Shown: in pieces, positions 6,085 through 19,830 of the stretch
How positions within the stretch are numbered: position 1 is the stretch's first letter
How the letters are laid out: each line of letters opens with the position of its first letter
Assembly: GCF_013342145.1 (NCBI RefSeq)
Contig: NZ_JABUQZ010000001.1
Location: forward strand, 3,100,001 to 3,164,000
Direction: 5' to 3'
Length of the DNA: 64,000 bases
Origin: Haloterrigena gelatinilytica
Lineage (GTDB): Archaea; Halobacteriota; Halobacteria; Halobacteriales; Natrialbaceae
The notes under the pieces: generated by a model
Told to the model about the DNA's origin: nothing
Database searches by the model: none
Seen by the model: the letters and a program-made list of their open reading frames with translations, nothing else
Position numbers and translations under genes: made by a program

Positions 6085-6215
6085 AGCACGAACTCGGTTA
6101 CGCGGCGAAAAAAGCGTTTCCCGAGGTGACCGTCCGCGAGTGAAACGAGCGGTTCTCCGCCGGAACGGCGACGCCCGTGACGGCGGCCTTTTTAGCGCAG
6201 ATTTTTGCGCCGAGA

Positions 6216-6237
6216 GATAGCTCCTTCGCGAGCTATC
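6216..6237. promoter_or_regulatory. Inverted repeat upstream of serS
   Basis: A perfect 8-base inverted repeat GATAGCTC/GAGCTATC with a 6-base loop. It lies 58 bases before the serS ATG and just upstream of a TATA-like GTAAAAAGG (6242-6250). It sits in the divergent interval between the PhoU/TrkA-C gene and serS. It could be an operator or the end of a transcript; no T-tract follows it. Confidence 0.35.
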
Positions 6238-6295
6238 CGAGGCGTAAAAAGGTACTTCGACACGGTTTTGGCGGGGCACAGAGAACCCACGGGCA

Positions 6296-7675
6296 ATGAT
6301 CGATCGGACCTATCTGCGCGAGAACCCCGAGGAGGTACGCGAGGCCCTCGACGACCGCGGCGCCGACGTCGACCTCGACGGGATCCTCGAGATCGACGAG
6401 CGCTGGCGCGAGCTGAAGGCCAAGGGCGACGAACTCCGCCACGAGCGCAACCAGATCACCCAGCAGATCGGGGAGCTGGTCGCCGAAGGGAAAGACGAGG
6501 AACGCGAGGAAGCGATCGAGCAGTCGAAGGAACTCAAGTCGGAGATCGAGGACGTCGAGACCGAAGCCGACGAGCTCAAGGACGAACTCGACGAGCGGCT
6601 GCTCGAGGTGCCCCAGATTCCCCACGAGAGCGTCCCGAAAGGGATCGACGAGCGCCACAACGTCGAGGACCGGCGCTGGGGCTTCGACGACCTGCGCGAC
6701 GTCCCCGACGACGTCGTCCCACACTACGATCTCGGCGAGGAGATGGACATCATCGACGAACAACGCGGCGCGAAGACGACCGGCGGCGGCTTCTACTTCC
6801 TCAAGGGCGACGGCGCCCGCCTTGAGCACGCGCTGATCCAGTTTATGCTCGACGTCCACCGCGAGCAGGACTACGTCGATATCTTCCCGCCGGTGCCGAT
6901 CAACAGCGAGTCGATGCAAGGGACCGGGCAGTTGCCGAAGTTCGCCGACGACGCCTACCGGCTGGGGGGCAGCAACGAGGAGGAGTACGAGGACGACGAT
7001 CTCTGGCTCTGTCCCACCGCGGAGGTGCCGGTCACCAACATGTACGCCGACGAGATCCTCCTGCAGGACGACCTTCCGCTCAAACACCAGGCCTACACGC
7101 CGAACTTCCGGCGCGAGGCCGGCGAGCACGGGACCGAGACTCGCGGCATCGTCCGCGTCCATCAGTTCAACAAGGTCGAACTCGTCAACTTCGTCGAACC
7201 CGAGGAGAGCTACGACCGCCTCGAGGAACTGCTCGGCGAGGCGGAGGAAGTCCTCCAGCGACTCGGCCTTCCCTACCGCGTGCTCGAGCTCTGTACCGGC
7301 GATCTCGGGTTCAAGGCCGCAAAACAGATCGACCTCGAGGTCTGGGCCCCCGCCGACGACATGGACGACGGCCCCGAGGAGGGCGGCCGCTGGCTCGAGG
7401 TCTCGACGGCCTCGAACTTCGAGGACTTCCAGGCCCGGCGGGCCGGCCTGCGCTACCGCCCCGAGCGCCACGAGTCGGCGGAGTACCTCCATACGCTGAA
7501 CGCCTCGGGCGTCGCGATTCCGCGCGTGATGGTGGCCATCCTCGAGTACTACCAGAACGACGACGGCACCGTGACGATTCCCGAGCCGCTGCGGCCGTAC
7601 ATGGGCGGTAAAGAAGTCATCGAGGGCCACGAGAAGGTCGGCGAGAGCGCGCTCGGTGCCGGCGAGCGGGAGTAA
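6296..7675 (+). CDS. serS: Seryl-tRNA synthetase
   Basis: A 459-residue class II aminoacyl-tRNA synthetase charging tRNA-Ser. The N-terminal 110 residues include a long charged coiled coil (about 35-105) that grips the tRNA-Ser variable arm. The catalytic core shows TAEVPVTNMYADEIL (serine-binding TxE), motif 2 in FRREAGEHGTETRGIVR, EVSTASNFEDFQARR and motif 3 in LNASGVAIPRVMVAILEYYQ. Length is normal for the bacterial/haloarchaeal type; it is not the rare methanogen SerRS. It starts at the ATG of MIDRTYLREN. Confidence 0.98.
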   Translation: MIDRTYLRENPEEVREALDDRGADVDLDGILEIDERWRELKAKGDELRHERNQITQQIGELVAEGKDEEREEAIEQSKELKSEIEDVETEADELKDELDERLLEVPQIPHESVPKGIDERHNVEDRRWGFDDLRDVPDDVVPHYDLGEEMDIIDEQRGAKTTGGGFYFLKGDGARLEHALIQFMLDVHREQDYVDIFPPVPINSESMQGTGQLPKFADDAYRLGGSNEEEYEDDDLWLCPTAEVPVTNMYADEILLQDDLPLKHQAYTPNFRREAGEHGTETRGIVRVHQFNKVELVNFVEPEESYDRLEELLGEAEEVLQRLGLPYRVLELCTGDLGFKAAKQIDLEVWAPADDMDDGPEEGGRWLEVSTASNFEDFQARRAGLRYRPERHESAEYLHTLNASGVAIPRVMVAILEYYQNDDGTVTIPEPLRPYMGGKEVIEGHEKVGESALGAGERE

Positions 7676-7856
7676 CGGCGTCGTCCAATCCGCTGGACTC
7701 GTCTTAAACTGCCGTCTTGCTCCGAGCGACGATTCGGTGTCACATAACTGGCTCGGTGTGGCAATAAATAGCGTTGTTCGGGAGCAGATAGCTTGAGACT
7801 GACCGTAGTAACGCGAAAAATAGCGTACTGAGTCCGGAATGTTCCTCAACCGTCGA

Positions 7857-8699
7857 TCAGGATTCCATCGGATTTTCGTTCTCTGAAATATCGACGTAGT
7901 TTTTCACTGAACTGAGGTTAACTGCGTCCCCATCGCCGCCGTAATGGTACTCTAGGATCGAGTGAGCGGTACACTGCGTGAGCAGAGGAGTGGGATCGGG
8001 ATACCATTCCAACTGCGAACCCCAATCAGTCCCGTCACACGCGGTATCGGGGACATCGTCCGAGAGGTAGGACGTGTATCCGGTAGCCATGATCGTCGGA
8101 TCACCATTCCGCGGATCCCCCATCTGATGATCCAAAGGCCACTCATCGTCGTGAAGCGTCTGACCGTGGATCATTTCGTGAATCACGAAATTATACCCGT
8201 GGTCGTATCTGGTGGCAATTGAACCGCCGGTATGGTTCGTGTTAACGAACAGAACCGAGCCGCCTGAGTCGTAGAGCTGGTGTCGATCGTCATAGCGACC
8301 GGCAGGGCGATCGGAATTCGTCGTGACGATTATGTTGATCTTGCCCGGACTCGTATCTATTATCGAGAGGTCTTCCCGAATTGGATCGAAGTCGCTGAAG
8401 TCACTTGTACCCGAATCAGGAACGGGATCGACGTCCGAACCAGAGGTGTCGATGTAGTCATTAATTGAGTAGTCGTCGACGTACGCGCACCACGTGTTCA
8501 TCCATTCCAAGTAGTCGTCCACACCGTCTCGAACGCCGTCCACGAAACGACTGTCGTGCGAATCCGTCCCGTCACTTCGAAGCGTTACATCAATATCCTC
8601 GTGATCGGAGGAACCATTATCGGCAGTGGCGAGTCCGCTGAAAGCGACCGAACCGGTGGCTGCCACACTGGCGCCTTTCAGGAATTTTCTGCGTTCCAT
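7857..8699 (-). CDS. Tat-exported zincin-like putative metalloprotease
   Basis: A 280-residue protein with a Tat signal at its start (ERRKFLKGASVAATGSVAF, twin Arg then a hydrophobic run). The mature part is acidic. The only functional mark is HEMIHGQTLHDDE, an HExxH zinc motif with Asp at the third-ligand position (H+10), as in snapalysin-type zincins. It is followed about 25 residues later by TIMATGY, which could be a metzincin Met-turn. I infer a secreted metallopeptidase. No propeptide is obvious and several Cys could form disulfides. The gene and the AT-rich 120 bases upstream have clearly lower GC than the neighbours, suggesting transfer. Confidence 0.65.
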   Translation of the reverse strand: MERRKFLKGASVAATGSVAFSGLATADNGSSDHEDIDVTLRSDGTDSHDSRFVDGVRDGVDDYLEWMNTWCAYVDDYSINDYIDTSGSDVDPVPDSGTSDFSDFDPIREDLSIIDTSPGKINIIVTTNSDRPAGRYDDRHQLYDSGGSVLFVNTNHTGGSIATRYDHGYNFVIHEMIHGQTLHDDEWPLDHQMGDPRNGDPTIMATGYTSYLSDDVPDTACDGTDWGSQLEWYPDPTPLLTQCTAHSILEYHYGGDGDAVNLSSVKNYVDISENENPMES

Positions 8700-8880
8700 T
8701 GCGTTGCAGGCAACAACAATTCTAACGATAAAATTTTGTGTAGAAGAATAAAATTAAATGATGTAAATAAAACATAATACTAAATACACTGAGGAGTGAT
8801 TAGCGGCAGACATTATTAAATCGGAGCGAGATTACAGCAAGAGTGACGATTGGCCAGAGAAGCAACCGATTTGGCCATTT

Positions 8881-8898
8881 CGTATTCGGTCGAATACG
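8881..8898 (-). terminator. Hairpin downstream of EF-2 gene
   Basis: A perfect inverted repeat CGTATTCG/CGAATACG lies about 40 bases beyond the EF-2 stop. On the EF-2 strand a short T-tract (about 8908-8913) precedes it. Archaeal termination depends mainly on T-tracts, so the hairpin's part in ending the transcript is a guess. Confidence 0.35.
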
Positions 8899-8936
8899 GC
8901 AGTGGCAAAAAGGAATTTCGGGACCGCGAGTCGACC

Positions 8937-11123
8937 TTACAGGTAGTCGATGCTCGGCGGCAGCTCGAGCTTCATGCCCTTGCGCTCGCGGATCTCCATG
9001 ATCTTGTCGCGCTGGAGGGAGTCGGACATGACCTCGAAGCCGGCGTTCTCGGTGTTCCAGGAGGCACGACCCTCGGTCGCGGAGCGGATGTCGGACGCGA
9101 AGCCGATCATCTCGCCGACGGGCGCGATACCCTCGACGACCATGAGGTCCCCTTCCTGGTACATGTCGTCGACGCGGCCACGACGACCCTGGATCTCGCC
9201 GGAAGCGGCGCCCATGTGGTCGTTGGGCACGTCGATGCGGACGTCCTGCATCGGCTCGAGCATCTTGATCTTCCCGTCGATCAGGGCCTTATGGACGGCC
9301 TCGCGGGTCGCCGGGATGACCTGTGCCGGACCGCGGTGGATGGTGTCCTCGTGGAGCCGGGCGTCGTGGAGGCGGATGAGCGTCCCCTGGACCGGCTCGT
9401 TGGCCAGCGGACCGTTGTCGAGGGCCTCCTCGAGACCCTCGACGACGAGTTCCATCGTCTCGTTCAGGTGCTGGATACCCTTCGTGTCGTCGATGAGGAT
9501 GTTCGTCCCGTGGATGTGCTCGACGTTCTGGGACGTGTCCTTGTCCATGCCGGCTTCCTGCAGGGCCTCGCGGCGTTCCTGCTCGGGCATGTCCATCGAG
9601 GCCTCGCCGAGCTTGATGGTGTCGACGAGTTCGTCCGTCATCGGCTCGATGGAGATGTAGAAGCGGTTGTGGCGGTTCGGCGAGATGCCCTCGACCTCGT
9701 CGCTGGGGTTCTGGGGCTGCTCGCGGTAGACGACGATCGGCTCACCGGTGTTGACCGGAATGCCCTGGTTCTTCTCGATACGCTGGGTGATGACCTCGAG
9801 GTGGAGCTCACCCTGTCCGGAGATCAGGTGTTCGCCGGTGTCCTCGTTGATGTTGATCTGGATCGTCGGGTCCTCCTTGGAGACCTGTCGAAGCGTCTCG
9901 ATCAGCTTCGGCAGGTCGTCCATGTTCTGGGCCTCGACGGACTTCGTAATGACCGGCTCGGAGATGTGCTCGATCGACTCGAACGGCGTCATCTCGACGC
10001 TCGAGACGGTCGAGCCGGCGATGGCGTCCTTGAGCCCGGTGACGGCGGCGATGTTCCCCGCCGGAACCTCTTCGACTTCCTCGCGCTCGCCACCCATGTA
10101 GATGCCGACGGACTGGACGCGGTTCTTGCCCGCCGTCCCGGAGACGTACAGCTCCTGGCCCTTCTCGAGGGAGCCCGAGAAGACGCGGCCGGAGGCGATC
10201 TCGCCGGCGTGGGGGTCCATCGAGATGTCGGTGACCATGAAGACGACCTCGCCGTCCTCGTTGACGAGGCGCATCTGCTCGGCGAGTTCGGACTCGTCGT
10301 CGCCGCGCCAGATGCGCGGGATACGACGCGGCTGCGCGTCGACCGGGTTCGGGAAGTGCTCACAGACCATGTCGAGCACGACGTCCGACAGCGGCGTCCG
10401 CTCGTGGAGCTCCTGGCGCTTGTCGTTGCGCTCGAGTTCCATGATCTCGCCGAAGTCCATCCCGGTGCGCTGCATCGAGGGCATCGAAACGCCCCACTTG
10501 TAGAGCGCGGATCCGAACCCGACGGTGCCGTCCTCGACGGAGACGGTCCAGTCGTCGATGTCGTCCATGTCCTGGGTCATCCCGCGGATGAGCTCGTTGA
10601 CGTCGTGGATGACCGACAGCAGACGCTGCTGCATCTCTTCGGGACCCTCCTGCAGTTCGGAGATCAGGCGGTCGACCTTGTTGATGAACAGGGTCGGCTT
10701 GACGCCCTCGCGAAGGGCCTGTCGCAGCACCGTCTCGGTCTGGGGCATGGCCCCTTCGACGGCGTCGACGACGACCAGCGCACCGTCGACGGCGCGCATC
10801 GCGCGGGTGACGTCGCCACCGAAGTCGACGTGGCCCGGCGTGTCGATGAGGTTGATGAGGTGGTTGGTCCCCTCGTACTCGTGGGTCATCGAAACGTTCG
10901 CCGCGTCGATGGTGATCCCGCGTTCCTGCTCGTCTTCCTCCGTGTCCATCGCGAGCTGTTCGCCGGCAGTCTCGTCGGAGATCATGCCTGCACCCGCGAG
11001 GAGGTTGTCAGAAAGCGTCGTTTTCCCGTGGTCGACGTGAGCGGCGATGGCGATGTTCCGGATGTTCTCCGGTTCGTCCATCAACCGTTCACACTCTTGG
11101 ACGATCTTCTTGCGTCGGCCCAT
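8937..11123 (-). CDS. fusA: Translation elongation factor EF-2
   Basis: A 728-residue archaeal EF-2, the GTPase that moves tRNAs and mRNA through the ribosome after peptide bond formation. G1 is [12 protein letters not shown] (residues 28-39), G3 [10 protein letters not shown] (94-103) and G4 NKVDRL (149-153). Domain IV contains TIHRGPAQV, whose His596 is the expected diphthamide site. Length and ends ([10 protein letters not shown] to PPSIDYL) are normal. It normally follows rps7 directly in haloarchaea; here about 7 kb separates them and the gene seems to have its own promoter (weak TATA at 11149-11156, 29 bases before the ATG). Confidence 0.99.
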
Positions 11124-11460
11124 ATACCCCCCATTACCGCCAGCGGGGTCAAAAGGGTAGTGTTTCGTCGCCGCCGGAATTCGTCGCGTTTCCCGGTTCC
11201 AACGGTGGAATATCCAATTTGAGTGAGTGAATCCCTCGCATAATTTGGTCGCCGTCGACCGGCCCGTCTACCGCCGAACCCCTCGTTCTACGCAACGATC
11301 GTCAGCGAACCGTCTGATCCCGCCTACTCGTCCCCGCGAACCTGCCCGATTCCAAACCGGTTCGGGGCCGCAGCCGCGCGCTGCGTGGCACGCCAGGGTC
11401 GTCCGCCGCACGCGAACGCACAAAAGAGTCAAATCCTTCGACCCCTTGCTATCCGTACAC
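11124..11460. other. Divergent promoter interval between EF-2 and HExxH protein
   Basis: These 337 bases separate two divergent genes. A weak TATA-like stretch for EF-2 lies at 11149-11156 on the minus strand. The ORF upstream of 11461 on the plus strand is Arg/Pro-rich and is not taken as part of the next gene. No RNA gene or repeat is seen. Confidence 0.4.
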
Positions 11461-12231
11461 ATGAATATACGCGTACAGGGACCGGGACCGACTTCTCCAT
11501 TCCTCAGCGCCCGCGACCTCTTCGAGACCGAGCACGACCTCTCGCTGCCGGTCGACGTCCGGCTCCGGGACGACCCCGACGAACGCACCTGGGCCGGTCA
11601 CTACGACGATCGCCACGTTCTGAACATCTCGAGACAGGCCGCCTCGAGCGCCATGGCCCGCGAACTGGCCCTCCACGAGTTCGCCCACATGGCCCGACAC
11701 GAACAGAAACACCCCTCGCACACCCAGTCGACCGAGGAAGTGCTCTTCCTCGCGCTGGCCGGCAAGAGCGTCGAGCGGCGGAAGCTCTCCCACTGTTACC
11801 AGATCGCCAATCACATGAAAGACATCTACGCCGACGACATCACGCTCGCGGTCGGCCCCGGCGAGAAACTCCTCTCCTTTCTCGAGTCGAGCCTCGCGAT
11901 GGCCGTCGCCGACCGTCCCGAAACTCCGTCGCGGCCCGGTTTCGAGCGCCTCTCGGCGAGTTCGGATCCCGAGATCACGGCCGTCAACGCCGCGTTCGCG
12001 CTGGCGCTGGCCGAACGCCACGACTTAGTCGCCGACGACCACCGGCTGTACGACCTCGCACACGCCGCCGCGATGGACGCCCCCGACGTCGATTTCGAGG
12101 GCTTCAAACGCCGCTTTCGGGAACTCGCCCGCGACCCGGATCCGAGTACCTACCGCCAGGTTCTCGTCGATGCCACTCGCTCGTACGTCAGTAGCCCGGA
12201 GTCGCGAGCGGACGGTCCGGCGGCGGACTGA
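11461..12231 (+). CDS. DUF5781-like protein with HExxH motif
   Basis: A 256-residue soluble protein that I recall as a haloarchaeal conserved family (DUF5781); the name is from memory. It carries LALHEFAHMARHEQKHPSH around residues 72-90, an HExxH motif followed by further His residues, as in zinc-dependent peptidases. The rest is helical and acidic with no signal peptide, so it would act in the cytoplasm. The start at MNIRVQGPGPTSPF is chosen because the upstream frame is low-complexity Arg-rich sequence. It is divergent from EF-2. Enzyme activity is untested inference. Confidence 0.75.
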   Translation: MNIRVQGPGPTSPFLSARDLFETEHDLSLPVDVRLRDDPDERTWAGHYDDRHVLNISRQAASSAMARELALHEFAHMARHEQKHPSHTQSTEEVLFLALAGKSVERRKLSHCYQIANHMKDIYADDITLAVGPGEKLLSFLESSLAMAVADRPETPSRPGFERLSASSDPEITAVNAAFALALAERHDLVADDHRLYDLAHAAAMDAPDVDFEGFKRRFRELARDPDPSTYRQVLVDATRSYVSSPESRADGPAAD

Positions 12232-12321
12232 CCGACACCGACGCCCCGGCCGTAAAACCGGTAGCCGGTAGGGAGGCCGGTTCGGGCCGATTCCTCGCAC
12301 GTCCAGCTTCGCTTCAACCCG

Positions 12322-12334
12322 AACATTTAATGTT
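12322..12334. promoter_or_regulatory. Palindrome/TATA before DUF7504-like gene
   Basis: AACATT-T-AATGTT is a perfect dyad containing a TTTAA core, 30-42 bases before the ATG at 12364. It may combine the TATA box with a repressor site. A second AT stretch, ACATATATTG, abuts the start codon. Confidence 0.4.
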
Positions 12335-12363
12335 TGATCCCGCTAACGGTCTAACATATATTG

Positions 12364-13089
12364 ATGTTTTCGCGCAAGGGCTGGGGTAGCGGGTCCGGGG
12401 ACGAGCAGTTCACGGCGGAGCTATCGCAGCTGAAACGCCGGGGAGCGAGCGTGCTCGTTGTCGGAGCCGTCCGAACGGAACAGCGCCAGGAGGTCAGTCG
12501 ACGCCTGCTGGGGCAGACAACGTCCCAGCCGCGCCGACGCGTCCTCGTCTCGACGACCGGCGAAAGCCACACCATGTCTCACCTCGCCGACGGCGACGAC
12601 GCCGAGTCAGCGACGACCGCACTCGTCAACTACGAGACGCAGTCTCGGGGTGCTGCCGCCGCTAATAACGACTCGCAGTCGATGGAATCCGTCTCCGTGC
12701 AGTCCGACGACTCCCCGACGACCGCCGCCACGCTCGCCGACCTCGGGATCGCCGTCTCCGACGCCATCGAGGAGTTCGAACGCGACGCCACCAGCCTCGC
12801 ACCGGGTGAGCTCCGCATCGCCGTCGACTCGCTCGTTCCGCTCCTCGAGGAGTACGGCGCCGAACGCGTCTTCAAATTCGCTCACCTGACCAACGGCCGC
12901 ACCCGAGACGCCGACGGCATGATCCACTATCATCTCCCGCTGGACCGCGACTCCGACGTCGTTTCGGTCCTGACGCCGGTGTTCGATATCGTCATCGAAC
13001 TCCGCGATCGAAACGGCCTCTTCCAGGAACGTTGGACGATCAACGACGGCGACTACAGCTCCGGCTGGCTCTCGATCGGACAGTCGTAA
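12364..13089 (+). CDS. DUF7504-like conserved haloarchaeal protein
   Basis: A 241-residue protein of unknown function. The N-terminal 80 residues (LKRRGASVLVVGAV, later RRRVLVSTTGE) look like the alternating strands and helices of a Rossmann or degenerate P-loop fold without a Walker A. An acidic Ser/Thr-rich linker follows, and the C-terminal 110 residues (ELRIAVDSLVPLLEEYG, then HYHLPLDRDSDVVSVL) form a second domain. I recall such proteins under DUF7504, often near HalX regulators; that is from memory. A TTG at 12361 precedes the ATG chosen. It lies 78 bases upstream of CHAT1 on the same strand and may be co-transcribed with it. Confidence 0.7.
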   Translation: MFSRKGWGSGSGDEQFTAELSQLKRRGASVLVVGAVRTEQRQEVSRRLLGQTTSQPRRRVLVSTTGESHTMSHLADGDDAESATTALVNYETQSRGAAAANNDSQSMESVSVQSDDSPTTAATLADLGIAVSDAIEEFERDATSLAPGELRIAVDSLVPLLEEYGAERVFKFAHLTNGRTRDADGMIHYHLPLDRDSDVVSVLTPVFDIVIELRDRNGLFQERWTINDGDYSSGWLSIGQS

Positions 13090-13167
13090 CGCCTATCGAC
13101 CGCTCGAGCGTCACGTCCATTATCTCCCGGACGATCAGCCATAGTCCCCCTCTCACTTGCCGATGCT

Positions 13168-15237
13168 ATGAAACCGAAATTCGAACCCCTCGACGACGGC
13201 CTCGAAATTATCGATCCGATCGAACGTCACCGGTATCGGCTGACGACTCACGAGCGAGTAGACCCGGTGCCGATAAGCACTGATGAGATTCCGTTTCCAG
13301 TTGATTCGACTGCTGAGATTTCGACTGAAACGATAACGCTCCCGTCAAGCGACCTTCTTTATATTCGGGATCAGGATGGGTTGATGATCACCGAAGTTCA
13401 GCCGGACGAACAAGCTTCATTACCGGAAGATCAGTATATCATAGACTTGTCCGGGCCTATGAAGATATACGCGTACGTCGATTCGACAGTTAATGTTTAT
13501 TCAGACAGCGAGCACACCTACATTTCCTTTGACGATTTAACGGCGGTTACTATCGGAGCGAGATCTTTCCATACGAGACCCGCAGAAACAATCGTAACAA
13601 CGTCTGATCCGAGCGACGTAATGCGTGCAGTCACAGCGTTCGGGTCCGCCCTGAAGACGACAACCCCAGAGCGATCGTACCCGACGCTACGAGGCCATCC
13701 ACCAAAAATCGAAATTGGAGAGGAGTTCAAAGCCCCTCACCGGTTAGAAGACCGTAATCCAACTGTTCGGATCGAAATACCGCCGACACTACGCCATATA
13801 TTCGTTATCTCCTCACTCGCGTACTATCTTGGCGCGGAGGTTATCCCTGGAAAGAGAGCACGAATCCTCACTGACGATGGTAAGTCACATCCATTAGATG
13901 ACAAAAATTTCGAGGAAAGCGTTGAACGAGTGCTTAAGAAGCTGTTCTTTTTAGATTGTATTGTCCGAACAGAAGGCTCAACGCCGTTACCGCTATACGA
14001 ACGACAGAAAGTCGAACAGAAACTGGACTTCGATATCGCACACGTATATAGTCAGCCACTTTCTCAACAACTTAAGACCTATCTCGAAGTGCCATTTGAA
14101 ACGATAGAGTCATGTCTTCCGGAGTGGAGATTGAGCGTTCATATTGAACCCACCACAGAAATTATTGAATTTCTTCCCTTCATCGCTAATGACCTTGCAA
14201 TAGTCAAAATACAAAATGAAGACGAGCGATTAACGCCCTCATCAAAAGGACAGAGTGAAGCGATCGAAGAATTCGTACGGGGTGGTGTCGATCAGCCGTC
14301 GGTTAAGATTCGAAGCTCAGAGACTCATAGTGGGGGTGAATGGCAATCATCGACACCGACGGTACGCCAGACGTGGAAACTAGGCGGAAATTCTGCCGTT
14401 AAAAGCACGACACCGCTCTCTGCATACCAGAATAATATCGGTCGGAGTCCGCGGGAGGACCCAATTGAAATTAAAGTTGTTTGTAATGATCCGAGTATGC
14501 GTGAGGAATTGGAGAACGTCAATGGTGTCTACGGTACTCGCAAGGAGCTACCATTCGATGTTACTATTTACTACGATCTATCAATAGAAGACCTTGAATT
14601 TATATTAGCAAGTAAAAGTGATTTTCTCCACTATATTGGTCATATCGATGGAGACGGATTCCAGTGCTCCGACGGTAAATTAGACGGTGCATCGATCGAC
14701 TCTGTAGGAATGAAGGCGTTCCTACTTAATGCGTGTCAATCATACGAACAGGGATTACACTTAGTCAACTCCGGAAGTATCGGCGGAATAGTCACCTTTG
14801 ATGAAATCGTTAATACCGGTGCAGTTAGTGTCGGTAGTATAATTGCACGACTCTTGAATCGAGGCTACCCCCTTCACGCTGCGTTAGATGTTGCACGACA
14901 CAAAAACGTGATCGGCAACCAATACCGGCTCGTTGGAAACGGGAAGACGACAATAACTCAATCAAAAACGGGAGGCCCTACCGTATGTTCAATAGACCGG
15001 TCGAAAAAAGAAACTCGTGTTACTATAAACACGTATACGACTTCGTGGGCAGGGAACGGGAGTATCTTCACACCCCACATAAATTCGGTAGACAAATATT
15101 ACTTGAGTCCGAGAGAAACAGATCAAATTACAGTATCTGATGGGGAATTAGCGGACTATCTTGCTAGAGAGCAAATACCAGTTATAACTAAGACTGGCGT
15201 TCGATGGAGCAAAAATCTCGCTGAAGAGTTATTCTAG
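13168..15237 (+). CDS. CHAT-domain (caspase-like) putative protease, copy 1
   Basis: A 689-residue protein. The last 230 residues carry a CHAT-type caspase fold: the His motif FLHYIGHIDGDG (His492) and, 31 residues on, the Cys motif FLLNACQSYEQG (Cys523), then GSIGGIVTF and a helix typical of CHAT ends. This predicts a cysteine endopeptidase. Residues 1-440 form an unfamiliar module, beta-rich at first (PLDDGLEIIDPIERHRYRL), then RSYPTLRGHPP and IEIPPTLRHIFVISSLAYYLGAEV. A variable Ser/Thr-rich stretch (about 355-425) could be a linker. GC is distinctly lower than in flanking genes. It is a close paralogue of the gene at 16282. Tail-to-tail, only 3 bases away, is a micropeptide gene. Substrate unknown. 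Confidence 0.8.
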   Translation: MKPKFEPLDDGLEIIDPIERHRYRLTTHERVDPVPISTDEIPFPVDSTAEISTETITLPSSDLLYIRDQDGLMITEVQPDEQASLPEDQYIIDLSGPMKIYAYVDSTVNVYSDSEHTYISFDDLTAVTIGARSFHTRPAETIVTTSDPSDVMRAVTAFGSALKTTTPERSYPTLRGHPPKIEIGEEFKAPHRLEDRNPTVRIEIPPTLRHIFVISSLAYYLGAEVIPGKRARILTDDGKSHPLDDKNFEESVERVLKKLFFLDCIVRTEGSTPLPLYERQKVEQKLDFDIAHVYSQPLSQQLKTYLEVPFETIESCLPEWRLSVHIEPTTEIIEFLPFIANDLAIVKIQNEDERLTPSSKGQSEAIEEFVRGGVDQPSVKIRSSETHSGGEWQSSTPTVRQTWKLGGNSAVKSTTPLSAYQNNIGRSPREDPIEIKVVCNDPSMREELENVNGVYGTRKELPFDVTIYYDLSIEDLEFILASKSDFLHYIGHIDGDGFQCSDGKLDGASIDSVGMKAFLLNACQSYEQGLHLVNSGSIGGIVTFDEIVNTGAVSVGSIIARLLNRGYPLHAALDVARHKNVIGNQYRLVGNGKTTITQSKTGGPTVCSIDRSKKETRVTINTYTTSWAGNGSIFTPHINSVDKYYLSPRETDQITVSDGELADYLAREQIPVITKTGVRWSKNLAEELF

Positions 15238-15240
15238 CGT

Positions 15241-15366
15241 CTACGGCCCGTGGTAGAATCCGCTAGAGGCGGCAGCGGAACCTGCTTGTGAAATCGCTAG
15301 CATGATGGTGAACAAAACGCCGATCATTCGTGGGTGGTTCTTCAGGTACTGGGTTAGGTCGTCCAT
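15241..15366 (-). CDS. 41-residue single-pass membrane micropeptide (DUF7503-like)
   Basis: Too short for most gene callers. The frame starts MDDLTQYLKNHPRMIGVLF, continues as one hydrophobic segment with the small-residue stretch SQAGSAAAS, and ends FYHGP before TAG. It predicts a short cytoplasmic N terminus, one membrane helix and a short external tail; a signal peptide is the alternative. I recall similar haloarchaeal peptides (pattern YLxNHPR-(I/M)-GxLF) under DUF7503. A TATA-like AT-rich box at 15396-15406 supports transcription. Its stop lies 3 bases from the CHAT1 stop, and the HalX gene lies 147 bases upstream on the same strand. Confidence 0.7.
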   Translation of the reverse strand: MDDLTQYLKNHPRMIGVLFTIMLAISQAGSAAASSGFYHGP

Positions 15367-15395
15367 GGTACACCTTAGACATATCCGCCTGGTAC

Positions 15396-15406
15396 CATAA
15401 ATTTAT
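15396..15406 (-). promoter_or_regulatory. TATA-like box of the micropeptide gene
   Basis: On the minus strand this reads as an ATAAATTTATGG-type sequence 30-40 bases before the micropeptide ATG, inside an AT-rich stretch (15393-15465) that stands out in this GC-rich chromosome. Confidence 0.4.
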
Positions 15407-15513
15407 TTTAATATATCAGATGAATAAATAATAGTGTTATTGATTAACATATCTGTTGGAAAATACCTAAGAGTTGACTATAACTACGAAAGCGCTACTA
15501 AGGCTAAAAGAGG

Positions 15514-16080
15514 TTACTCGAGCAACTGTCGAAGAGCCTGATCGAACTCATCGCTCGAGAGTTTGTCGCGAATCGCGGCTGCCCGTGCACGGGAGTTATA
15601 GAGTTCAGAAACGACGGACTGGTACCGGTCGCCGACGTCGAGTCCAGATTGAAGTTCGCTCTCGAGCAGCGCTCGTTCGGTCGAAAGACGGAAGAACTCG
15701 TCCATCGCCGTCTCGTAGGCTTGCTGGAGAAGCAGGCGTTCGATCGTCGACTGTAAGACTTCATCCGAGAGGGGCCGAACGAGGAGTTCGTCTGCACCGC
15801 GATCGACGGGGTCGTCGGTGGGAACGTCGTCAGCAAGCGCGAGTATCTGGGTGTTCGGAGCCCGTTGACGAAACGCATCGAGAACGCCACGCGCGTCCGG
15901 GGTCTCGAGTTCCCAATCGAGAATGAGAAGATCGTAGCTCTCGTCGATCTGATCGAGGATCGACCGATCGAAGTCGGCCTGTCGAACCGTTGCCGCGATT
16001 CGTGCCTGATCGGTACCCAGATCGGGAAGGGAAAGGGTAGGATGGACGACGAACAGTCGAGAGGTAGATTTCAGCAACAC
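15514..16080 (-). CDS. HalX-type response regulator with degenerate receiver
   Basis: About 188 residues: a receiver-like domain (1-115) followed by a HalX domain (about 120-185). The HalX part is recognised by YETAMDEFFRLSTERALLES and the Tyr-rich helix up to DQALRQLLE. In the receiver the phosphoacceptor strand LLILDWELE keeps its Asp, but the acidic pair after strand 1 is missing (LFVVHPTLS) and the conserved Lys is Arg (LLVRPLS). Phosphorylation may therefore be altered or lost. Start set at GTG 16080, fitting a leaderless transcript from the TATA at 16111-16118; TTG at 16092 is an alternative. It sits between the two CHAT genes, divergent from CHAT2. No kinase is adjacent. Confidence 0.8.
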   Translation of the reverse strand: MLLKSTSRLFVVHPTLSLPDLGTDQARIAATVRQADFDRSILDQIDESYDLLILDWELETPDARGVLDAFRQRAPNTQILALADDVPTDDPVDRGADELLVRPLSDEVLQSTIERLLLQQAYETAMDEFFRLSTERALLESELQSGLDVGDRYQSVVSELYNSRARAAAIRDKLSSDEFDQALRQLLE

Positions 16081-16110
16081 AGTACCTACCAATACTGGGA
16101 GGGCAGATAC

Positions 16111-16118
16111 TATTAAAT
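16111..16118 (-). promoter_or_regulatory. TATA box of the HalX gene
   Basis: On the minus strand the sequence reads ATTTAATA, centred about 26 bases before the TTG at 16092 and 35 before the GTG at 16080. Confidence 0.45.
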
Positions 16119-16281
16119 GTGATTAGGTACGAACGTGGACTCCGAGTACGTACTCGAATATATGAGTTAACAACCAGTGAAATATATAGAACAGCCGTAA
16201 CTTATACTGTATCTAGTCGATATCCAATTCGATACGGAAGATGGCGAGTTTCCGAGCATCTTTCACCAAACTTCACGACCG

Positions 16282-18348
16282 ATGAAACCGAGATTCAAAG
16301 CAGTTGAAAAAGGATTGGAAATTATCGACCCAATCGAGCGAAAACGCTATCCACTAGAGACAACGACACCGGCCACACCGGCAGTTGGTAATGCAGATCG
16401 GATACCGTTTCCGGTGGACTCAACGATAGAGATCAGAACGAGCAGAGTGACGCTTCCGGAGAATCCATATATCTACGTTCGTGGCCCTGATGGGACACTG
16501 TGTGCCGAAGTCGGTCCGGGAGAGAACATCACTCTTCCAGAAGAAGAATATATTCTCGATCTATCCGGTCCGCTGAAGGTTTATGCACACGTCAACGATC
16601 CCGTTCAGATTTGTGTAGGAAAAGCGAGAGCAGAAGTTGCTTTTGAAAAGCCCGCTCGAGTAACACTTAGCGCACGGTCCTTTCACCGCCGCCCAGGTGA
16701 GACAGTGACAACGACTGATGATCCGGCCGATATAATGCGGGTACTCTCAACGTTCGGAGCGACGTTGAAGACAACGACATCGGGACGTTCGTATCCGACG
16801 CTCCGTGGCCATCCACCGGCAATCGAACTAGCCGACGAGGTATCCATTCCGGATACCCTAAATCAGCCTCAGACCGGGATCAGAATCGAAATCCCGCCGA
16901 CGCTCGATCATATCTTTGCTATTACGGCCTTAGCGTATTATCTCGGAGCAGAAGTCGTTCCAGGGTCGACACCACGACTGACAACGGAAACGGGATATTC
17001 TTACTCACTCGATGGTCGAGATGACTTCGAAACGACGGTTGAGCGGGTTCTCAGACAGATTTTCTTCCTCGACTGCATCGTACAAACTGAAGGAGAAACG
17101 CCAAGTTCACTGTACGAGCGACAGGCAGTCGAACCACTACTCGAGTTCGATATCGAAGAGGTATACGAGCAATCGATGGTCGAACAGCTCGAAACGTATC
17201 TCGAGGTCCCCTTCGAGCGGATAGAACCACAGGTTCCACCGTGGTATTCCGAGATTCGTCTCGAGCCGACGGATGATCATATCGAGTTTCTCCCCTTCAT
17301 TGCGAACGACCTCGCAAGTGTTAACGTTAGAAATACTGCGAGTGATCCGACAGAGCCGCTACAGGAACGACGGCGAACGACTACAGAACCGACGCGGGTA
17401 ACTGAATCCCGGATCACCAACTTAGGCCCCACAGATTCCGAAACGGATGCGGAATCTCTTCCATCTAGTCCAGTACTTCAGCAATGCTGGAAAAACCACG
17501 ATGGTAGTACTACCGTAAGCACGAAACCGCTATCGGCCTCTCGAAATAGCATCACGCGAACGCCGCGAGAGGAACCGCTCCGGATCGAAGTTATCTGTAA
17601 CGATCCGAGTATGAACGATGAACTCGTAACCGTCCACAGTACGTATCAGGATTCCACCGTCCCGTTTGACGTTACTGTTCACCACGACCTTTCGAAGCGG
17701 GAACTACGAGAAGTCTTCACGAAAGAGAGCGGCTTTCTTCACTACATCGGCCACATCGATTCGGATGGCTTCCGGTGTTCGGATGGAACGCTGGATGCCG
17801 CGGATCTCGAGTCCGTCGGTACGAAGACGTTCTTTCTTAACGCCTGTCGGTCGTACGAACAGGGACTCCATCTCATCGAGGCGGGGAGTATTGGTGGAAT
17901 CGTAACGCTCGTCGAGATCACAAATCAGACCGCAGTCAGTACCGGAAATACAATCGCACAGTTATTGAATAGCGGGGTACCGCTCTATGCAGCACTAAAA
18001 CTACTCCAGCAGACGACGGACAACGATCAGCAGTATCACCTCCTTGGCGATGAGGGACTCGCGATCACCCAGCTAGAGACGAGCCCACCGCTCTCCGTTG
18101 AGATAACGAGGACCGAATCGAACTACGAAGTGACCGTAATAGTGTATAAGAACTCGAGAATGAAACCTGGCTCCGTCTATACACCGTACCTCTCGGGTGT
18201 GGACTCGTATTATCTCGTTCCCGGTGAGATGTCATTTCAGCACGTCTCGAGAGCGGACCTCATCGAGTTCCTCAACACGGAAGAGTTCCCCGTGCTCCTC
18301 GAGGGAGAACTCCGCTGGAGTACGCAGATCAAGACCGGCGAACTGTAA
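16282..18348 (+). CDS. CHAT-domain (caspase-like) putative protease, copy 2
   Basis: A 688-residue paralogue of the gene at 13168, collinear from MKPRFKAVEKGLEIIDPIER to the end; by eye more than half of positions match. The catalytic pair is His491 in FLHYIGHIDSDG and Cys522 in FFLNACRSYEQG. The N-terminal module, RSYPTLRGHPP and the IEIPPTL helix are conserved, while the Ser/Thr-rich linker around 350-420 differs most. GC is intermediate, higher than copy 1 but below the chromosome. A TATA-like AAATATATAG at about 16180 lies roughly 100 bases upstream. No micropeptide follows this copy. It should be a cysteine protease of unknown substrate; retained catalytic residues in both copies argue against a pseudogene. 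Confidence 0.8.
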   Translation: MKPRFKAVEKGLEIIDPIERKRYPLETTTPATPAVGNADRIPFPVDSTIEIRTSRVTLPENPYIYVRGPDGTLCAEVGPGENITLPEEEYILDLSGPLKVYAHVNDPVQICVGKARAEVAFEKPARVTLSARSFHRRPGETVTTTDDPADIMRVLSTFGATLKTTTSGRSYPTLRGHPPAIELADEVSIPDTLNQPQTGIRIEIPPTLDHIFAITALAYYLGAEVVPGSTPRLTTETGYSYSLDGRDDFETTVERVLRQIFFLDCIVQTEGETPSSLYERQAVEPLLEFDIEEVYEQSMVEQLETYLEVPFERIEPQVPPWYSEIRLEPTDDHIEFLPFIANDLASVNVRNTASDPTEPLQERRRTTTEPTRVTESRITNLGPTDSETDAESLPSSPVLQQCWKNHDGSTTVSTKPLSASRNSITRTPREEPLRIEVICNDPSMNDELVTVHSTYQDSTVPFDVTVHHDLSKRELREVFTKESGFLHYIGHIDSDGFRCSDGTLDAADLESVGTKTFFLNACRSYEQGLHLIEAGSIGGIVTLVEITNQTAVSTGNTIAQLLNSGVPLYAALKLLQQTTDNDQQYHLLGDEGLAITQLETSPPLSVEITRTESNYEVTVIVYKNSRMKPGSVYTPYLSGVDSYYLVPGEMSFQHVSRADLIEFLNTEEFPVLLEGELRWSTQIKTGEL

Positions 18349-18414
18349 CCGGCCGTCTCGAGTCCTGCCGCTGGACGGTCGGAGAGAATCGAAAAGAAAC
18401 GAGTCGGCGATCGC

Positions 18415-19023
18415 TTAGCGTGCAGCCGCTGCGACGCGCTCTTTCTCTTCTTTCTGGCTGACTGCGTAGGTCTGGACGTCGTAGTTGGCCGCGCCGACGA
18501 GCTGGTTGGCGATAGCCTCTTCGACGGGCGTGGGCGTCTTGAACGAGTCGTTGTAGACGCCTTCCGCGAGGAACTTCAGGGCCTGGTCGACGCGACGCTG
18601 GGGTGCGACGTCGACGGCTTTGGGGACCGAGATGCCACCGTACTTCAGGCGGACGGTCTCCTCGCGCGGAGCCGCGTTCTCGACGGCGGTCACGAGCACC
18701 TGAACGGGGTTCTCGTCGGCACGCTCGTCGATGAGCTCGAACGCGTCGCGGACGTGGTTGAGCGTCTTCTGTTTCTTGCCCGTGTTCTCCTCGGTCTGCA
18801 TGAGACGGTTGATGAACCGCTCGACGATGGAGATCTGGGACTTCTTGAACTGCTTGCTGGCGTGACGGCCGGCGGTGTGTGCGACCGGCGTCACCGTGAT
18901 GTAGCGTTCGGTCGAGGGATCCTCGTAGGCGATCTCGTCGATCTCCCAGGTGCCGAACAGCTTCGCACCGACGTCGGCTCCGCCCGCGGGGGCGTCGGGG
19001 TCTGGTTGGTCTTCTGCCGCCAT
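18415..19023 (-). CDS. rps7: 30S ribosomal protein uS7
   Basis: A 202-residue archaeal uS7, which nucleates assembly of the 3' domain of 16S rRNA and lies at the E site. Family marks include ERFINRLMQTEENTGKKQKT and RVDQALKFLAEGVYNDSFK. An acidic N-terminal extension (MAAEDQPDPDAPAGG) is typical of halophilic versions. It starts 2 bases after rps12 ends and is surely co-transcribed with it. EF-2, its usual downstream partner, is displaced by about 7 kb. Confidence 0.98.
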   Translation of the reverse strand: MAAEDQPDPDAPAGGADVGAKLFGTWEIDEIAYEDPSTERYITVTPVAHTAGRHASKQFKKSQISIVERFINRLMQTEENTGKKQKTLNHVRDAFELIDERADENPVQVLVTAVENAAPREETVRLKYGGISVPKAVDVAPQRRVDQALKFLAEGVYNDSFKTPTPVEEAIANQLVGAANYDVQTYAVSQKEEKERVAAAAR

Positions 19024-19025
19024 GG

Positions 19026-19454
19026 TTATCGCACCGGTTTCTCCGCGTTTCCGCGAACGAGTTCCTTCAGTGCGACGCCGTTGACCTTGTCGACCTTGTA
19101 GTTGACGCCGGAGAGGTCGCCCATCGCACGACCCTTCGCCCCGCCGATCCCGGCGATGGTGACTTCGTCGTGTTCGTCGATGAACGAGATTGCGCCGTCA
19201 CCGGGACAGAACGCGGTGACCTGTTTGCCGTTCTTGATCAGCTGCACTCGGACGCACTTTCGGATCGCCGAGTTGGGCTGTTTCGCTTCGATACCGACTT
19301 TTTCGAGGACGATACCGCGGCCCTGCGGAGCACCCTCGAGCGGGTCGGACTTCTCGCGGAGGCCTCGTGCGCGGCGCGCGTAGTCAGAGTCGGACCACCG
19401 CTGGTTCTGGCGGTCCTTCTTGAGTTTGCGCGCGGCGTATTTGCCGTTTGCCAT
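19026..19454 (-). CDS. rps12: 30S ribosomal protein uS12
   Basis: A 142-residue archaeal uS12, which contributes to decoding at the A site. [20 protein letters not shown] and [17 protein letters not shown] are family signatures. It starts at [14 protein letters not shown]; the ORF can be read further upstream, but that part is not ribosomal-protein-like. A TATA box (CTTAAG, 19479-19484) about 27 bases upstream suggests a leaderless mRNA, so rps12-rps7 have their own promoter separate from the RNA polymerase operon. Confidence 0.98.
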
Positions 19455-19830
19455 GGGCGTCGCTATCCGACGAAGGCACTTAAGCGACCCGTTTCGAATC
19501 GGCGTTACGGCACGAGAGCCCTCAATCGGGGTCGACGAAGGACTCTGAGAGCGTTTCACCACCGCGCAATAGTTCTCGAGCCGTCCGTACCGATACGACG
19601 CGCTAGCGCCTCCGAACGAGTGTTCGAACGGAGGTAACCGGATTTGACCCAGCATCGAGTCCGTACGGAGTGTCGAAGGGACGATGACTCGATAGACGAT
19701 TATAGCGAACTCGGTTGGCGGCGGTTATCGATCGCCGACCGTTTCGGTTCGAGGATGACGAATTAGGGGCCATTGAACATTCACGAATTCCTAGGAGTTA
19801 TTAGTCTGGTGGGTGCATTCTGCATACGGT
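19455..19830. other. Intergenic interval between rps12 and V4R-like gene
   Basis: About 376 bases holding the rps12 promoter at its left end. The rest has no credible ORF, repeat or RNA gene. The AT-richer right end (19760-19830) probably contains the promoter of the next gene. Confidence 0.35.
19478..19485 (-). promoter_or_regulatory. TATA box of rps12-rps7
   Basis: CTTAAG centred 27 bases before the rps12 ATG. This spacing puts the transcript start at or next to the start codon. It matters because rps12 is usually read from the upstream polymerase operon. Confidence 0.5.

Follow-up and report, generated by a model that had tools for sequence, protein, structure and literature searches.

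Several described systems come close to the one considered here. Arbitrium AimP and the RRNPP peptides are made as short exported precursors, and SecM and TnaC are arrest peptides with Gly-Pro or Pro-stop. CHAT proteases (PF12770, clan CD), among them the TPR-CHAT protein of Craspase and the SAVED-CHAT protein 8tl0, share a HYIGH...LNAC dyad and an alignable C-terminal domain with the proteins discussed below. Extracts of Haloferax volcanii display very high caspase-like activity, which is tied to salt stress, and archaea are said to be without caspase genes (PMC3615174). The present analysis concerns a window of 64,000 nucleotides, the whole stretch of DNA that was analysed (G000:C1:3100001-3164000), within the 4.55-Mb genome of the haloarchaeon Haloterrigena gelatinilytica. 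The window encodes two large proteins, here called CHATa and CHATb, and a micropeptide of the Pfam family DUF7503. An earlier note on this DNA had described a cluster of five genes, for a DUF7504-like protein, two paralogous CHAT proteins, a HalX regulator with a damaged receiver and the micropeptide, and all five are present. The CHAT gene and the micropeptide behind it look like an undescribed protease-peptide partnership. The family in the window departs from Craspase TPR-CHAT and from SAVED-CHAT in carrying no recognised TPR or SAVED region, in having its own N-terminal region and in falling below Pfam detection; whereas the partner of the Craspase CHAT protein is a CRISPR effector, its own partner is a convergent micropeptide ending in Gly-Pro.

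Sequence comparison places both large proteins among the CHAT (caspase-like) proteins, as divergent members. Taken singly, CHATa and CHATb matched no Pfam, NCBIfam or PADLOC model, and the assignment therefore rests on profile-profile comparison. When hhalign set a profile of the C-terminal domain against established CHAT domains from other genomes of the phylum, the dyads coincided and the match had a probability of 97.4% at E 1.1e-11, which bears out the domain proposed by the earlier note. Ten column shuffles and four unrelated profiles (HalX, DUF7504, rps7 and the N-terminal region) all scored at most 1.4%, and these controls rule out shared composition as the source of the match. Among 51 relatives, 12 match Pfam CHAT at E values up to 1, the best being 5.7e-4, and NCBI names relatives 'caspase family protein' or 'CHAT domain-containing protein'. 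In the PDB, the only lead from the 51-member profile was the CHAT protein 8tl0 (E 0.85), and here too the dyads align. CHATa and CHATb are paralogues (49% identity over 686 aa) that carry the dyads His492/Cys523 and His491/Cys522 as claimed; of 153 haloarchaeal homologues, 151 retain the HYIGH His and the LNAC Cys (123/125 in a first set). Structure prediction had an input of only 7 sequences. The whole-protein model (pLDDT 51) is good for the beta-rich residues 1-135 only, whose best structure matches, glycoside hydrolase and YidC periplasmic domains, reach Z scores of at most 7.4 and do not rise above chance. In the model of the CHAT domain (pLDDT 49) the order of strands and helices fits a caspase-type alpha/beta fold, but the model is too weak to demonstrate that fold, with caspases and SAVED-CHAT among the matches at Z 4.0-4.9 only. 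No paper was found that ties CHAT domains to haloarchaea.

The micropeptide scores 75.7 bits against the DUF7503 model (PF24335), far above the cut-off of 27, and the family occurs in 335 of 391 Halobacteria genomes. In a set built from one genome for each of 78 genera, all 111 DUF7503 hits lie convergent, tail-to-tail behind a CHAT gene and mostly within 150 bp of it, when the loci are read; scored against the listed CHAT genes alone, 106 of the 111 are convergent, with a median gap of about 30 bp. This genus-wide set replaces a hand-picked count (66/68 convergent) that was biased to genomes present in both lists. A class-wide pairing of protease and micropeptide is thus strongly supported. 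Purifying selection acts on the peptide: across 88 pairs of relatives the median pN/pS is 0.23, a value that together with the 111/111 synteny rules out a chance open reading frame (ORF). The gene also has its own promoter, strong and AT-rich: over 109 aligned upstream regions, AT content is 85-91% at most positions from -37 to -29 against a background of 38%. Members follow the pattern x(10-15)-[HN]P[RK]MIGVLFTxxLLLSQAGxxAA and then a tail of 7-9 residues. They carry one hydrophobic helix and a predicted signal-peptidase-like site, with A or V at -3 in 105/110 and A or G at -1 in 108/110. No paper was found that names DUF7503 or DUF7504.

The extreme C-terminus is Gly-Pro in 93 of 110 DUF7503 peptides, and this ending extends beyond the family. 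Among ORFs lying no more than 300 bp behind CHAT genes, a Gly-Pro end is seen in 108 of the 367 convergent ones and in none of the 313 on the same strand; the background rate among other, unassigned ORFs is 63/14210. The CHAT tree is split into two clades (support 99), and at 16 loci of the second clade (L173, L174, L176, L177, L179, L180, L184, L210-L212, L214-L217, L225 and L227) the partner is a soluble peptide of 39-61 residues ending in AKRVSTYGGP or close variants. These soluble peptides matched no Pfam family. Divergent membrane-type partners are found at L130, L178, L204, L206-L208, L220, L223, L224 and L229, and two partner types fall outside any Pfam family. At L203:6034-6363 (-), the partner consists of seven copies of NGGGISGP / YTADGNGGGISGP-type units, like a multi-copy precursor. 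Altogether, 137 of 153 haloarchaeal CHAT genes face a convergent DUF7503 or Gly-Pro-ended peptide. Across relatives the ending is written with every one of the four Gly and four Pro codons and with each of the three stops, so selection acts on the protein, and an origin of the ending in a terminator or DNA motif is ruled out. What the partner peptides have in common is the C-terminal Gly-Pro and not a membrane segment. The obligate DUF7503-CHAT pairing, the Gly-Pro rule and the partners outside DUF7503 are new here.

We give about an even chance to the proposal that the peptide is the cognate partner of the CHAT protein, which would read its tail as substrate or regulator. The two genes would then form a core-like haloarchaeal module of a CHAT cysteine protease and a convergently encoded micropeptide. 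The protease, which looks soluble, would combine an N-terminal regulatory region with the C-terminal caspase-like domain, and the part of the peptide read by it would be the last 7-10 residues with their Gly-Pro end, displayed on varied carriers: membrane or signal-peptide-like in DUF7503, small and soluble in the AKRVSTYGGP type, or tandem repeats. Most likely the protease would be gated by binding of the tail or by cleavage of the peptide. DUF7504, and at times HalX or other response regulators, may feed stress signals into the module, and mutual antisense at the overlapping 3' ends may help to separate the expression of protease and peptide. We infer in this way the physical contact, the cleavage, the direction of regulation and the physiological output, whether a role in stress or in death. 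Several observations weigh against the proposal. Gly-Pro is missing from 17 of the 110 DUF7503 peptides, and 16 haloarchaeal CHAT genes, CHATb included, have no recognised partner. One copy of a CHAT pair at L169 that has lost the dyad keeps a Gly-Pro DUF7503 partner and would be a pseudo-protease with its partner retained. The columns of the CHAT alignment that track Gly-Pro versus other endings outlined no clear binding site, and an exported DUF7503 tail would not meet a soluble CHAT protein without re-import.

Another possibility, which we regard as unlikely, is that DUF7503 is a Sec-type precursor cut after AxA, whose released Gly-Pro peptide of 7-9 residues would report density or damage, with the CHAT protein as intracellular maturase or receptor. 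Like the precursors of AimP and the RRNPP peptides, DUF7503 has about 40 residues, a signal-like start, a short variable C-terminal peptide and conserved last residues; the signal-peptidase pattern lies at a fixed distance, the tail varies while its Gly-Pro end is fixed, and the sevenfold NGGGISGP unit of L203 recalls multi-copy pheromone precursors. The candidate receptor, however, is a CHAT and not an RRNPP protein, and the soluble carriers of the second clade have no export signal. The hydrophobic segment of DUF7503 (L, F, Q, G) is moreover far more conserved than that of ordinary signal peptides, and its G-x-x-x-A equally fits helix packing in the membrane. Arrest of the ribosome at Gly-Pro-stop, by which the stalled peptide would alter termination as well as the antisense reading that enters the CHAT gene, and so exert control in cis, is very unlikely. 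Short peptides with their own promoter do run head-on to CHAT genes at 2-200 bp, and SecM and TnaC have Gly-Pro or Pro-stop at their end or stalling point, in a short peptide as in the CHAT partners. The partner peptide is nevertheless convergent with the CHAT gene and not upstream of a controlled gene, not all DUF7503 peptides have the ending, purifying selection spans the entire peptide, and in L203 Gly-Pro is repeated internally.

The earlier note had favoured a defence or cell-death module in which the micropeptide is a membrane effector or substrate of the protease. Its pairing with the protease stood. A DUF7503 peptide is one hydrophobic helix always placed beside a CHAT gene, and CHAT proteases work in such modules elsewhere (Craspase, PMC9729208), yet we consider it quite improbable that the micropeptide, once cut or set free by the CHAT protease, permeabilises the membrane as part of an antiviral or cell-death response. 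Since the partners share the C-terminal tail and not the membrane segment, being soluble in the second clade, a general gasdermin-like effector is unlikely; a pore, besides, would not need a strictly conserved extreme C-terminus. The distribution points the same way. The CHAT family is present in 365 of 391 Halobacteria genomes (93%) and 78 of 86 genera, is chromosomal or, where plasmid-borne, on replicons typed non-mobilizable only, and was absent from phage records and IMG/VR contigs, and PADLOC models matched none of the five window proteins. The family thus looks like a core-like gene, frequently duplicated, and not like a patchy defence island, and the defence reading is accordingly not supported. 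There remains conserved synteny without direct functional contact. Contact between CHAT protein and peptide is our inference, which leaves room for such a view, but it is highly improbable, for the pairing persists in multi-copy genomes, varied contexts and among unrelated flanking genes, and carrier peptides that have been replaced retain the Gly-Pro end.

Some further features of the two families may be recorded. Distant CHAT homologues also occur outside Halobacteria, in four genomes of a further family in the phylum (f19; L198-L201). In one of the four both dyad residues, His and Cys, have been lost, and no haloarchaeal-type Gly-Pro micropeptide was seen at these loci. DUF7503 peptides with other endings (e.g. 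L111, L119, L166 and L168) mostly end in NGGTIx, like an NxxxISGP tail minus its last two residues, and are scattered over the CHAT tree in about five places, of which one is a clade of ten. Endings of the soluble family that is convergent with the second CHAT clade range over (A)K(R)(V/I)S(T/S)Y(G)GP or SSPYTGP. A tandem duplicate DUF7503 gene stands behind one CHAT gene at L068:5989-6266. CHATb and the second copy at L123:3665-5689 represent a tandem-duplicate lineage without micropeptide and with the dyad intact; on the tree CHATb, whose partner label is 'none', groups with members of the CHATa clade. The tandem pair of L169 (G346) lies at 6125-8212 and 8303-10378, with HYIGE/DAD and HFIGQ/EAD in place of the dyad.

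In the window the genes follow one another in the order aEF-2 (-), DUF5781 (+), DUF7504 (+), CHATa (+), DUF7503 micropeptide (-), HalX (-), CHATb (+) and rps7/rps12 (-) (Table 1). The stop codons of CHATa and the micropeptide are 3 bp apart. The micropeptide belongs to CHATa alone, as the CHATb stop at 18348 and the stop of rps7 at 18415 leave no room for another. The closest named relative is Haloterrigena salina, whose CHATb is 93% identical, and the genome has a third CHAT copy at G000:C1:1525037-1527046, a member of the second clade.

Table 1. Features of the CHAT-micropeptide locus, in window coordinates
Feature	Position	Strand	Evidence
aEF-2	8937-11123	-	
DUF5781, metallopeptidase-like	11227-12231	+	
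DUF7504 protein, 242 aa, TTG start	12361-13089	+	PF24336 E 8e-58
CHATa, 689 aa; N-terminal region ~1-425, predicted C-terminal CHAT domain ~426-689	13168-15237	+	hhalign
Codon of catalytic-type His492 of CHATa, HYIGH motif	14641-14643	+	
Codon of catalytic-type Cys523 of CHATa, LNAC motif	14734-14736	+	
DUF7503 micropeptide, 41 aa, convergent with CHATa	15241-15366	-	PF24335 E 2e-21
Micropeptide exposed tail SSGFYHGP, after signal-peptidase-like Ala-Ala-Ala, Gly-Pro end	15244-15267	-	
Micropeptide C-terminal Gly-Pro codons, common to unrelated partner peptides	15244-15249	-	
Micropeptide AT-rich TATA-type promoter, AATAAATTTAT ~27-37 bp before ATG	15393-15413	-	aligned upstream regions
HalX protein, 192 aa, with degenerate receiver; same direction as micropeptide and upstream of it	15514-16092	-	PF08663 1e-5
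CHATb, 688 aa, tandem paralogue without own micropeptide	16282-18348	+	
Codon of His491 of CHATb	17752-17754	+	
Codon of Cys522 of CHATb	17845-17847	+	
rps7/rps12	18415-19655	-	

The DUF7504 gene likewise scores far above its model (PF24336, 196.3 bits against a cut-off of 27). It precedes CHATa by 78 bp, and the two are probably in one transcription unit. Such a gene is a frequent neighbour: in 42 of 109 pairs DUF7504 immediately precedes the CHAT gene on the same strand, and at 9 loci of the window's family that position is occupied by a Cdc6-like AAA protein. The window HalX protein reaches 26 bits against the PF08663 cut-off of 23.2. Its receiver is indeed damaged, scoring 18.2 bits with Response_reg (cut-off 30.2, E 0.003); other residues stand in place of its acidic pair near the N-terminus and of the conserved Lys, and a phospho-acceptor-like Asp is kept. 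The syntenic HalX copies of L171, L096 and L088 are degenerate in the same way, and the receiver is intact in other lineages. The repeated co-occurrence with CHAT genes that the earlier note had set as a check for both HalX and the micropeptide was found for the micropeptide; HalX is directly behind the peptide in only 9 of 109 pairs and is hence not a core part. As for the surroundings, rps7 and aEF-2 are expected side by side in the str operon; in the window (8937-19655), as in related genomes, the module and the DUF5781 gene lie between them. Seven of the loci examined have rps7 beside the module (L065, L088, L096, L112, L123, L170 and L171). They all belong to the window's family, and in each of them the module splits rps7 from aEF-2 or DUF5781.

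These findings bear on the caspase-like activity of haloarchaea. DUF7503 is present in Haloferax volcanii (a control row of the genome survey), and since every examined DUF7503 gene lies behind a CHAT gene, this species very probably has a CHAT protease. We hypothesise that the CHAT family is a candidate gene for the activity reported there (PMC3615174). The organism belongs to the same class and a His/Cys caspase-like protease would be expected; what was measured there is cleavage after Asp, whereas the CHAT family is known here from its sequences. It is conceivable, if doubtful, that the caspase-like class and its interchangeable Gly-Pro carriers constitute a new archaeal form of peptide-protease signalling, ancestral to most Halobacteria, which may lie behind at least part of haloarchaeal caspase-like stress activity. 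A divergent CHAT family with a conserved dyad, found in most sampled Halobacteria, offers concrete genes for that activity. Its obligate partner micropeptides give a handle on protease control, with a Gly-Pro end that is easy to mutate, and Haloferax volcanii, genetically tractable and in possession of DUF7503, is a practical organism in which to test it.

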